Part shown: in pieces, positions 1,152 to 38,870 of the stretch
How the letters are laid out: each line of letters opens with the position of its first letter
Position numbering within the stretch: position 1 is the stretch's first letter
Position numbers and translations under genes: made by a program
The notes under the pieces: generated by a model
Told to the model about the DNA's origin: nothing
Seen by the model: the letters and a program-made list of their open reading frames with translations, nothing else
Databases searched by the model: none
Source: Nitrosopumilaceae archaeon
GTDB lineage: Archaea; Thermoproteota; Nitrososphaeria; Nitrososphaerales; Nitrosopumilaceae
Direction: 5' to 3'
Assembly: GCA_024644385.1 (NCBI GenBank)
Contig: JAHELB010000002.1
Location: 1 to 64,000, forward strand
DNA length: 64,000 bases

Positions 1152-1694
1152 TCAAAGTAAACAGAATTGATAGATTAGGTCTTTACCATCATGGGTCATT
1201 TCGGGATGAAATTGAGTTCCAAAAATGAATTTTCCATTATATTGAATAATTTCTTTCTCACAGTTTTTTGAATAGGCTATGCTGGTTAAAAATTTTGGTA
1301 ATTTAGAAATTTCATATCCGTGACTTTCAAAAACCATAATTTTTTTTGTGGTAAGAATATTTTCTTTTTGAGTAAAAATTTCTTCATGGCCTTTTTGATA
1401 AGTTTTCAATTTCCTTATAGTGCCTCCTAAGGTGAGAGCTAAAATTTCTGCTCCATAACAAATTCCAAATAATTTTTTATTATTTTGAATGCTATGTAAT
1501 ATCACTTTAGAGTTAATTTGATTAATTTTTTTTTCATTTTTTCTACGCCCTGAAAGAATAAAGGAATCATATTTTCCGAGTGAGTCTATTTCTAGTTCAA
1601 AGGGAGATGTTTTTTTAAATAAAAAATTTTTTTCCTTTAGAAATTCGATCAAATTTGGAGTGTATATTGATCCATTATCAATAACAAGTAACAA
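1152..1694 (-). CDS. Class I glutamine amidotransferase, GMP synthase subunit A-like
   Basis: The protein has 180 residues and is a complete class I glutamine amidotransferase domain. The nucleophile elbow FGICYGAEI carries Cys79, and FGTQFHPEMT carries His163 and Glu165, completing the triad. Length and architecture match the separate glutaminase subunit of archaeal GMP synthase, which passes ammonia to the ATP-pyrophosphatase subunit GuaAb. The usual oxyanion-strand motif SGGP is replaced by SGRRKNEK, so another acceptor enzyme is possible. The start is TTG. The partner synthetase subunit is not in the window. Confidence 0.7.
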   Translation of the reverse strand: MLLVIDNGSIYTPNLIEFLKEKNFLFKKTSPFELEIDSLGKYDSFILSGRRKNEKKINQINSKVILHSIQNNKKLFGICYGAEILALTLGGTIRKLKTYQKGHEEIFTQKENILTTKKIMVFESHGYEISKLPKFLTSIAYSKNCEKEIIQYNGKFIFGTQFHPEMTHDGKDLIYQFCLL

Positions 1695-4920: not shown

Positions 4921-6042
4921 CTAAGCGATTGTCGCTAAATTCTTACAAATCATGTAGACTGCACCATAAGTTGGGATTGTAACAATTTCATTATTAAAGG
5001 GGCCAAACTTCTTGTTTTTTAATTTAAATTCTATGGGGCAACTTGCCTGTATTTCAACAGTGTTTTCATTTAGAAATGATGATTCTGAGTAAGGATCGAA
5101 ACTTTTAAGATCTTTGCAAAAAATTTTGGTCAACCCACTTTTGCTATTTAAGGAACCAGGAAGTCTAAAAATTCTATGAATATCCATTGTTACATTTGGA
5201 TCTATCTGAGCCCCAATGATTGTAGAAATATTTTCCAAATTTTTGTGAAATTTTGAATATCCACCAGAAATTAATTCTGAAATTATTTTTGAGCGTTTTG
5301 ATTTGGACCCAAAAATTTCTTTAGAGAATCTTCCCCTCCAACCTCTTTCTTCAAGATCAGGAAATAAGGAGCGTTGGGGCTTTAATTTTTTCATTCCAAA
5401 AGTTTCAGGGATTGCCCCTCTAAACATTATATAATCGACTAATTCTGATCTTTCTCTAGAGCCAAGCGTTAGAAATTGTGAATTATAAACATAAACATGA
5501 AAGCCCTCGTTTCCAGAAAAATAAATTTTAATATTATTTTTTTCTACACCTAGATCCTCAATTAAAATATTTAATAATTTGAATACTTCCTTTTTTGATC
5601 CTTCAATACAATTTTTACACGGTAATGATTTAATTTCTATTTTTTTAGAATTACAGTGCAAGCATTGATGATTTGAATTGGATACTTGATTACATTCATT
5701 GCATTTAGTAATAGAGTGACTTAGCCTACAATCTAATTGAAGATCTTTGGCATCAATGTCAAAAATAAGATCAGCTTCTTTCCAATCTTTTTCATTCATC
5801 GATAAATTAGGAAATGAGTAATAGGCATTGGAGCAATAAACATCAGACGGAATATTTTGCATAAGTAAAAGATGTAATTCCTTATTATCCTTTAATGAGA
5901 TATGTCGCATCATTCCGGAATTAAATTTTTGAAACCCAAATTCTCTTTCAGAAGTCCTTTCTGGTACATGAATAAGATCAAAATGATCAAAATAGTATTT
6001 TTTGAATGCGTCTTCTAAAAATTTAACTTCTTTTTCCTGCAT
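4921..6042 (-). CDS. priS: DNA primase small (catalytic) subunit PriS
   Basis: The protein has 373 residues. This is the catalytic subunit of the archaeal-eukaryotic primase that makes RNA/DNA primers at the fork. The catalytic motif FDIDAKD places metal-binding aspartates at residues 95 and 97. A zinc knuckle follows, with cysteines 114, 117, 127 and 130, then the SGNEGFHVYVY segment typical of the family. The ATG directly abuts the priL stop codon, so the two subunits are co-transcribed and probably translationally coupled. Confidence 0.95.
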   Translation of the reverse strand: MQEKEVKFLEDAFKKYYFDHFDLIHVPERTSEREFGFQKFNSGMMRHISLKDNKELHLLLMQNIPSDVYCSNAYYSFPNLSMNEKDWKEADLIFDIDAKDLQLDCRLSHSITKCNECNQVSNSNHQCLHCNSKKIEIKSLPCKNCIEGSKKEVFKLLNILIEDLGVEKNNIKIYFSGNEGFHVYVYNSQFLTLGSRERSELVDYIMFRGAIPETFGMKKLKPQRSLFPDLEERGWRGRFSKEIFGSKSKRSKIISELISGGYSKFHKNLENISTIIGAQIDPNVTMDIHRIFRLPGSLNSKSGLTKIFCKDLKSFDPYSESSFLNENTVEIQASCPIEFKLKNKKFGPFNNEIVTIPTYGAVYMICKNLATIA

Positions 6043-37282: not shown

Positions 37283-37714
37283 GTGAAAAAATTATTTCTC
37301 ATTATTCCAGCCGTGATAATTATTATTGTAGTTGCTTTAGGCTCCCAAACTGATAAGGAAAATACAAAAAGTGAACCTTTTTTTCATGTAACCCTAGCTA
37401 GTCCTGAATTATACGATAACGGAATTTATTTAAGCCAGTTTTTTTTAGAGAAAGGAGAATATTTCTTTAGGTTTGTGCCTAATGGTGATAGTCCCCAAAA
37501 TCTTACAATATCCTTAGTAGGAGATGACTTTGAGTTTTCTGAAAATTTCAAATTAATTGGAACCTTACACAAAACTGGAATCTCTGAATATTACACGTGG
37601 GATTATGATGGGGACAAATCATTTTTGATTTCAACCCAAAAAGAAATTTCTATTCAGATCAATCCAAATGGAAATGTGAGGGGAAGTGTATCAGTTGATA
37701 TCCTCAGAAAATAG
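37283..37714 (+). CDS. Secreted or membrane-anchored beta-rich protein
   Basis: The protein has 143 residues from a GTG start. A hydrophobic N-terminus (LFLIIPAVIIIIVVALG, about 4-20) is a signal or anchor; the rest is a beta-rich domain with GEYFFRFVPNGDSPQNLTISLVG, reminiscent of GOLD or jelly-roll folds. No catalytic motif is seen. A candidate structured RNA starts 3 nt after its stop. Confidence 0.65.
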   Translation: MKKLFLIIPAVIIIIVVALGSQTDKENTKSEPFFHVTLASPELYDNGIYLSQFFLEKGEYFFRFVPNGDSPQNLTISLVGDDFEFSENFKLIGTLHKTGISEYYTWDYDGDKSFLISTQKEISIQINPNGNVRGSVSVDILRK

Positions 37715-37717
37715 GAG

Positions 37718-37808
37718 GCGTGCCCCCTAGTTACAGAACTATGAGAGATTTCCTCTCGTGGTCAGGGGTTGGAGACCTGATTGCCTTTTTCGTTCTGCGA
37801 GGCCACGC
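37718..37808 (+). ncRNA. Candidate structured RNA with a three-way junction
   Basis: Outer stem P1 pairs 37718-37724 with 37801-37808 (one bulged C). P2 pairs CAGAAC (37734-37739) with GTTCTG (37792-37797). Within P2 are P3, 37741-37747 with 37753-37759 (5-nt loop), and P4, 37761-37766 with 37776-37781 (9-nt loop GGTTGGAGA). G-U pairs in P3 and P4 favour the plus strand. GC content is well above the flanks. I match it to no known family. It begins 3 nt after a stop codon and no gene follows for about 320 nt. Confidence 0.65.
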
Positions 37809-38096
37809 GATTTAGTCGATAGGAATTATGTCCTTCGGCATTAATTATTATAGTAATTTTTACTATTTATTAATTAATGAAATTTTTTATGTATTTTCCA
37901 ATAATTCTTGAAATTATTTGATATGTTTTTTTAGAGAAATCAATCCTAAAAAAAATTTTTAAAAATTCAAATTAAAAAAAAACTCAATGTTTAAAATTAG
38001 TAAAAATATTGAAGCGAAAATCTTGTTATCCCATATTATTCAAAGATAAAATTTTTAACCAAATTGAATTTCTTTTCCTGAAATTTCCTTAATGGG
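37809..38096. other. A/T-rich intergenic stretch
   Basis: This sequence follows the candidate RNA and precedes the SDR promoter. A short hairpin around TGTC-CTTC-GGCA (near 37830) may belong to the RNA's 3' end. The remainder is very A/T-rich, with T-runs suited to termination, and shows no convincing gene. Confidence 0.4.
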
Positions 38097-38104
38097 TATA
38101 AATT
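38097..38104 (+). promoter_or_regulatory. Putative TATA box of the SDR gene
   Basis: TATAAATT lies about 27 nt before the TTG start at 38127. This supports TTG as the true start on a leaderless transcript. Confidence 0.5.
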
Positions 38105-38126
38105 ACGATTTTTACTCTGAAAAATA

Positions 38127-38870
38127 TTGAAATTAGAAGGCAAAGTCGCATTAGTTACAGGTGCAAGTCGAGGTATTGGATTTGAAATTGCCAAAATTTT
38201 TTCTGAGAATGGCGCCAAAGTAGTACTCACCTCAAAAAATTCCCGACAATTAGAAGATTCTGCTAATCAATTAACCAATACAACATCAGTACCGGCAGAC
38301 ATTAGAAAAGAAGAAGAAGTTAAGCAAGTGGTAAAAAAGACAATAGAGATATTTGGAAAACTGGATATTTTGGTAAATAATGCAGGCGTTTTTCCAAAAA
38401 TAAAGCAATTACATGAGATCTCAGAATTAGAGTGGAACGATGTTTTAGATGTAAATCTTACAGGGCAGTTTAGATTTACAAAATTTGCCATCCCGTATCT
38501 GCAAAAGACTTCTGGAACAATCATAAATATTTCATCGGATGCGGGACTAAAAGCCTATGAGGGATTTAATGCTGATGCATACTCGGCAACAAAAGCGGCT
38601 TTGATTGTTCTTACCAAGTGTTGGGCATTAGAATATGCAAAAGATAAGATTCGAGTAAATTGTATTTGTCCGGGTGTAGTTGATACAGATATGACCAAAC
38701 CATTTTTGATTACCCAAAAAGATAGAGAATTTATGAATAATGATCATCCACTAGGAAGAATAGGTGCCCCCGAAGAAGTGGCAAAGTCAGTTTTGTTTCT
38801 TGCTTGTGAGGATTCTTCTTGGACTACAGGAGCAATTTTGGCTGTCGATGGAGGACAATCAACTAAATAA
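38127..38870 (+). CDS. Short-chain dehydrogenase/reductase, FabG-like
   Basis: The protein has 247 residues of classical SDR. TGASRGIG binds NAD(P)H, NNAG is at about 80-83, the active site is YSATKAALI, and the C-terminus TGAILAVDGGQS is FabG-type. FabG-like enzymes reduce 3-oxoacyl thioesters; the true substrate here is unknown. The start is TTG, supported by the TATA box position. Confidence 0.9.
   Translation: MKLEGKVALVTGASRGIGFEIAKIFSENGAKVVLTSKNSRQLEDSANQLTNTTSVPADIRKEEEVKQVVKKTIEIFGKLDILVNNAGVFPKIKQLHEISELEWNDVLDVNLTGQFRFTKFAIPYLQKTSGTIINISSDAGLKAYEGFNADAYSATKAALIVLTKCWALEYAKDKIRVNCICPGVVDTDMTKPFLITQKDREFMNNDHPLGRIGAPEEVAKSVLFLACEDSSWTTGAILAVDGGQSTK

Follow-up and report, generated by a model that had tools for sequence, protein, structure and literature searches.

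The locus considered here raises the question of whether a GC-rich, foldable segment lying immediately beyond a protein-coding gene is an RNA in its own right and, if so, from which strand it is made and what it might do. The window, by which we mean the whole stretch of 64,000 nucleotides analyzed from a Nitrosopumilaceae archaeon, contains this segment at positions 37718-37808, within a 412-nt gap (37715-38126) bounded by a 143-aa ORF (37283-37714, plus strand) and a short-chain dehydrogenase gene (38127-38870, plus strand). The initial annotation had described the segment as GC-rich and the gap as otherwise lacking genes, and both descriptions hold: there is no plus-strand gene in the gap, and the GC content of the segment is about 0.5 compared to 0.13 to 0.35 in the AT-rich surroundings. 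It had further proposed an unrecognized structured RNA with four compatible helices and a three-way junction, placed on the plus strand by its wobble pairs and made either by processing of a 3' UTR or as a separate gene, and had named a lack of covariation, a known family, or a repeat element as observations that would speak against it.

Homologues of the segment align as a minus-strand gene. The minus-strand fold had a z score of -3.6, with none of 200 shuffles equally good, and the plus-strand fold was weaker (z = -1.7). Over the homologues, the minus-strand helices contained 162 G-U versus 32 A-C cells in the 76-sequence alignment (A3), the numbers being swapped for the plus strand, and 76 G-U versus 9 A-C cells in the A1 alignment. 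The wobble pairs therefore do indicate a strand, but it is the minus strand rather than the one first proposed. A plus-strand RNA, including a 3' UTR RNA, was rejected on the basis of this G-U bias, the fold z scores, and the promoter described below, and we are almost certain that the locus carries a structured RNA gene on the minus strand. A short ORF of 31 codons is also present on the plus strand (37720-37815), opposite the strand of the conserved gene.

As modeled, the RNA gene occupies 37706-37841 on the minus strand (136 nt) and is matched at full length by covariance model R1 with 136.2 bits and an E-value of 4e-34, where the E-values come from shortened calibrations and the window copy itself belongs to the R1 seed. 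The span originally outlined, 37718-37808, coincides exactly with helix P1 from outer pair to outer pair and was correct in that respect, but the RNA itself extends from about 37841 to about 37706, and the outline omitted both the 5' third (37809-37841), which holds a mini-ORF and its hairpin that were absent from the initial annotation, and the U-rich 3' tail (37706-37717). In the alignment, the tail carries an invariant C directly after P1, and it is the likely termination region.

The four helices of the RNA form a three-way junction, in which P1 and P2 are stacked with a 3' bulge and open into a junction from which hairpins P3 and P4 extend; P0, a fifth hairpin, sits in the 5' third. On the minus strand, helix P1 (5' strand, 37799-37808; 3' strand, 37718-37727) was paired in 96% of cells and covaried in 7 of 10 pairs, and helix P2 (5' strand GCAGAAC, 37792-37798; 3' strand, 37733-37739) was paired in 98% of cells and covaried in 7 of 7 pairs. 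Hairpin P3 (UCAGG...CCUGA, 37762-37780, minus strand), which is variable in length, was paired in 92% of cells, with covariation in 5 of 5 pairs. Hairpin P4 (GAGAGGAAAUCUCUC, 37743-37757, minus strand) is the most conserved in sequence, and given that it was paired in 97% of cells with little covariation, its sequence itself is constrained. Hairpin P0 (37817-37837, minus strand), inside the mini-ORF, was paired in 80% of cells, with double-sided changes in 6 of 6 pairs in A3; its register differs among clades, and it was not predicted in subfamily C, so P0 may not be essential.

When 76 distinct homologues were fitted to the model (A3), 93% of cells were paired, double-sided changes occurred in 28 of 33 pairs, and 220 double-sided cells were observed versus 42 in shuffles, values that come from an alignment leaning toward the structure and from sequences that are mutually related. 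Slid registers of the same homologues paired at most 43% of cells versus 93% in the true register. An alignment of 28 sequences made with MAFFT without reference to structure likewise had 94% of cells paired and 13 double-sided pairs. In both alignments, the covariation surpassed all shuffles and all slid registers. The four compatible helices and the three-way junction are thus borne out by covariation.

Upstream of the RNA, a TATA-like box (ATAAATA) is located at 37864-37870 on the minus strand, its first base lying 29 nt upstream of the mini-ORF start codon. The TATA-like heptamer begins 28 to 29 nt upstream of the start codon in 130 of 146 homologues, and this spacing suggests that the transcript is leaderless. 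A pattern search combining the promoter, nine codons, and GCG in six genomes matched almost only these RNAs, with one control match. The segment does begin 3 nt after a stop codon, as first noted, but that stop belongs to the convergent plus-strand gene. A processed 3' UTR RNA would lie downstream of the mRNA on the same strand; here, the RNA is antisense to the adjacent ORF, its tail only meets the stop codon, and its paralogues lie beside other genes. The other proposal, a separate gene, is supported by the conserved promoter of the RNA itself and by three fixed genomic homes.

Within the window, Rfam 15 reported only tRNA at the gathering threshold, and with a relaxed E-value, the window copy and eight homologous loci gave chance-level matches only. 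ARAGORN found no tRNA or tmRNA in the segment and only a tRNA-Gly at 74-149. A hammerhead-like core was weighed but set aside, since distant members do not conserve the matching bases. Neither Rfam nor the open-access papers searched, including those on Nitrosopumilus small RNAs, contained a described relative. The Tan1 ncRNA of marine Euryarchaeota resembles the present RNA in coming from an abundant marine archaeal lineage and having no known function, but it belongs to a different phylum, is 229 nt long, and has no mini-ORF mentioned in the passages considered (PMC5069720). We therefore regard the RNA as a new family and a new variant among small RNAs that bear an ORF, and there is a fair possibility that it is a new kind. 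The view of the segment as an unrecognized structured RNA is strongly supported, and each of the contrary observations named at the outset was looked for and none occurred.

The family is confined to the Nitrosopumilaceae in the genomes searched. A DNA search of 61 whole genomes (that of the window plus 60 relatives) found the RNA in 20, all Nitrosopumilaceae, in up to three copies, and the core motif occurred in named records including Nitrosopumilus, Nitrosarchaeum, and Nitrosomaritimum. Model R1 matched 174 of 185 Nitrosopumilaceae genomes, with one to five copies each; the matches included 127 of 131 good genomes and represented 17 of 20 genera. Two of the weak-scoring genomes of the family (G151 and G019) held recognizable divergent copies on inspection. 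Model R2, which was built with distant members, had no match outside Nitrosopumilaceae among 397 genomes of the phylum or in a smaller set of other-family genomes, and no viral copies of the core motif were found. Typical copies with Nitrosopumilaceae-type neighbors were seen in records labeled Hyphomicrobiales (L103) and Chitinophagaceae (L105), which are probably mis-binned archaeal contigs. The genome of the window has copies at C67:37706-37841, C39:18312-18449, and C19:78-206. A weak model match in the window (5367-5498, minus strand, 22 bits) lies inside an apparent coding sequence and was taken as chance.

The RNAs of the family fall into three paralogous groups at fixed loci, beside the 143-aa ORF (A), purP (B), and aroA (C). 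Group A RNAs are convergent with the 143-aa ORF family (the 3' neighbor in 111 of 162 placed RNAs), with the tail of the RNA meeting the stop codon of the neighbor, and are often divergent from a dehydrogenase gene. In the window, the ORF (37283-37714, plus strand) encodes an N-terminally hydrophobic protein, and its stop codon lies inside the tail of the RNA. The ORF had no Pfam match; it belongs to a conserved Nitrosopumilaceae protein family that keeps an almost constant synteny with the RNA. Group B RNAs are convergent with a purP-like gene (PF06849). The divergent group C (L177-L199) was revealed by R2 in most genomes rescanned, including that of the window. In the genomes examined, it lies beside a convergent gene that we take to be aroA, and in most it is flanked on the other side by a presumed aroC, both names coming from our reading of the protein sequences rather than from a family search. 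In G213, two tandem copies about 310 nt apart (L150, 1192-1627) each have their own TATA-like box and a mini-ORF, of 8 and 9 codons. A homologue in genus g11 (L174, about 1490-1640, minus strand) sits beside the same convergent ORF at an E-value of only 0.007 and lacks the nine-codon frame, representing either a loss or an unusual form.

The mini-ORF of the window copy (37812-37841, minus strand) reads ATG CCG AAG GAC ATA ATT CCT ATC GAC TAA (MPKDIIPID*), and its start, length, and stop are conserved. The frame is present in 144 of 148 distinct RNAs and has exactly nine codons in 140. Among the 145 distinct RNAs with an ATG or GTG, 140 had exactly nine codons followed by a stop, compared to a mean of 5.9 and a maximum of 12 when the bases of each RNA were shuffled. 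GTG has replaced ATG twice, and length variants have 8 or 10 whole codons. In two RNAs (L165 and L166), the frame was found a few bases upstream, also with nine codons, and the strongly diverged subfamily C, which was found by structure, has nine codons too. The exceptions without the standard frame are L028 (ATG lost), L167 (which reads ATG TGA), and a distant G019 homologue with no nine-codon frame.

The stop codon is TAA in 93 RNAs, TAG in 33, and TGA in 18. On a tree built from the RNA sequences with the ORF left out, about 100 nt each, the first stop position was an unchanged T in 140 of 140, and the second and third positions held only A or G with at least 12 and at least 20 changes, meaning at least 32 changes among TAA, TAG, and TGA; these per-position counts come from the 140 nine-codon RNAs, where the absence of sense codons is partly by selection of the set, with only 4 of 148 RNAs outside the frame set. 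TGG was observed in none, versus 4.1 expected if the positions were independent, and the three bases after the stop took all four letters with 24 to 37 changes each. The peptide drifts: one-step pairs had 14 nonsynonymous versus 2 synonymous changes, and second codon positions evolve at some of the highest rates. These comparisons show that the start codon, the nine-codon length, and the stop are selected while the peptide drifts, and it is very likely that the mini-ORF is translated and selected as such. Given that start, length, and stop are conserved and the peptide is not, the sequences suggest that being translated, rather than the peptide product, is the selected trait.

Our best explanation for the observations as a whole, to which we assign a probability of about 0.5, is a leaderless minus-strand RNA of about 135 nt that acts in trans and whose mini-ORF couples its fold to translation. 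In transcript order, the RNA would comprise the nine-codon mini-ORF with a hairpin within it, the three-way-junction domain, and the U-rich tail. A terminating ribosome extends about 10 to 12 nt past the stop codon, and by this geometry a ribosome that started at the 5' AUG and reached the stop would cover the first P1 nucleotides and unfold P1. P1 begins 3 to 4 nt after the stop in 134 of 144 RNAs, so translation and the folded domain would be expected to compete. The 30-nt frame would accommodate approximately one ribosome. The mini-ORF could make the folding, stability, or ribosome attachment of the RNA depend on leaderless initiation in the cell, and the RNA may be a trans-acting regulator that depends on the state of translation or associates with ribosomes. 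Translation may switch or tether the structured domain. A translation-coupled regulatory role is a tentative proposal that we hold at slightly less than even odds, and we are similarly cautious about the broader idea of a free-standing structured RNA family with a sequence-free, fixed-length leaderless frame that serves as a ribosome-operated switch or landing pad.

In leader-peptide attenuators such as the trp leader, the stop of a short ORF also abuts a structure, and the position of the ribosome controls folding. Such attenuators, like riboswitch leaders, are located in the 5' UTR of the gene they regulate, which is read in the same direction. The 3' neighbor in the three main groups, however, is on the opposite strand and there is no downstream gene on the strand of the RNA, so the RNA is not an ordinary leader; in addition, the mini-ORF has no codon bias toward one amino acid, and its peptide is free to vary.

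We considered that the RNA might instead bind ribosomes via its 5' AUG and act on them, through hibernation or titration of leaderless initiation. The one-ribosome length of the frame, the putative leaderless start, and the irrelevance of the peptide agree with such tethering, as do the many Haloferax volcanii sRNAs that are occupied by ribosomes but yield no evident product (PMC12482152), although those were found by profiling and do not make up a single conserved structural family carrying a fixed mini-ORF. No rRNA-binding element was identified, and pairing with the 16S tail (the general archaeal sequence) was no better than shuffled (-9.5 versus -9.0 ± 2.2 kcal/mol); we consider this possibility rather unlikely. 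For P4, Shine-Dalgarno-like pairing to the 16S tail did not exceed the shuffled level either and was set aside.

An antisense RNA that overlaps the convergent gene at its 3' end and acts in cis on that gene, or on readthrough beyond it into the following gene, would fit the tails of the main copies, which overlap or nearly meet the convergent stop of the 143-aa ORF, the purP-like gene, or aroA. The overlap is at most a few nucleotides, however, and groups B and C have gaps of tens of nucleotides; the paralogues adjoin unrelated genes, and a convergent neighbor is missing from a few of them. Such regulation would also leave the three-way junction and the mini-ORF unexplained, and we consider it clearly unlikely.

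Dual-function RNAs of bacteria (Spot 42, SgrS, and RNAIII) likewise join a structured or regulatory part to a short ORF in one RNA, but their peptides are functional and conserved and their starts lie behind Shine-Dalgarno sites, whereas the Nitrosopumilaceae peptide drifts. The closest published case that we found is Methanosarcina mazei sRNA154, a proposed dual-function, free-standing archaeal sRNA with a leaderless 20-aa sORF at its 5' end (PMC11456600). Its protein is reported to be highly conserved in Methanosarcina (PMC11456600), whereas the present RNA keeps only start, length, and stop, and the likeness is one of kind. If the locus were a small-protein gene, the nine-residue peptide would be the product and the structured part its 3' UTR or terminator. 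The clear selection on the start and stop codons would be expected of such a gene, and certain peptides are seen repeatedly (25 distinct RNAs carry MPKDIIPID), but the recurring residues follow from the hairpin. A functional conserved peptide was not found: the peptide is unconserved between and within subfamilies, second codon positions are among those evolving fastest, nonsynonymous changes make up 14 of the 16 one-step sense changes, and conservation is much stronger in the structured domain than in the peptide. A second ORF inside subfamily C was not kept in all members on sequence inspection. A small-protein gene is therefore improbable.

A purely non-coding RNA acting in trans, with the mini-ORF as a by-product of promoter and hairpin constraints, would account for the strongly selected structure and for an intergenic position with its own promoter. 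Base pairing or promoter spacing would not, however, require stop changes to stay within the three stop codons without TGG, GTG to replace ATG, or lengths to change by whole codons, and the frame is kept in three paralogous groups even where the hairpin differs; we find this alternative quite improbable. A repeat or mobile element, although suggested by one to five copies per genome, is exceedingly improbable given the fixed, ancient gene neighborhoods across genera and the covariation of the members.

In summary, Nitrosopumilaceae rank among the ocean's most abundant ammonia oxidizers, and an RNA that practically every one of them retains is likely to be important, yet Rfam contains no such family. 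A nine-codon frame that stays fixed while its peptide drifts is clean evidence that a small RNA can be selected for its translation as such, and the sensing or control of leaderless initiation in archaea becomes directly testable. If the broader idea raised above is true, RNAs selected to be translated, and not to make a peptide, would be nearly universal in one of the most abundant archaeal families.
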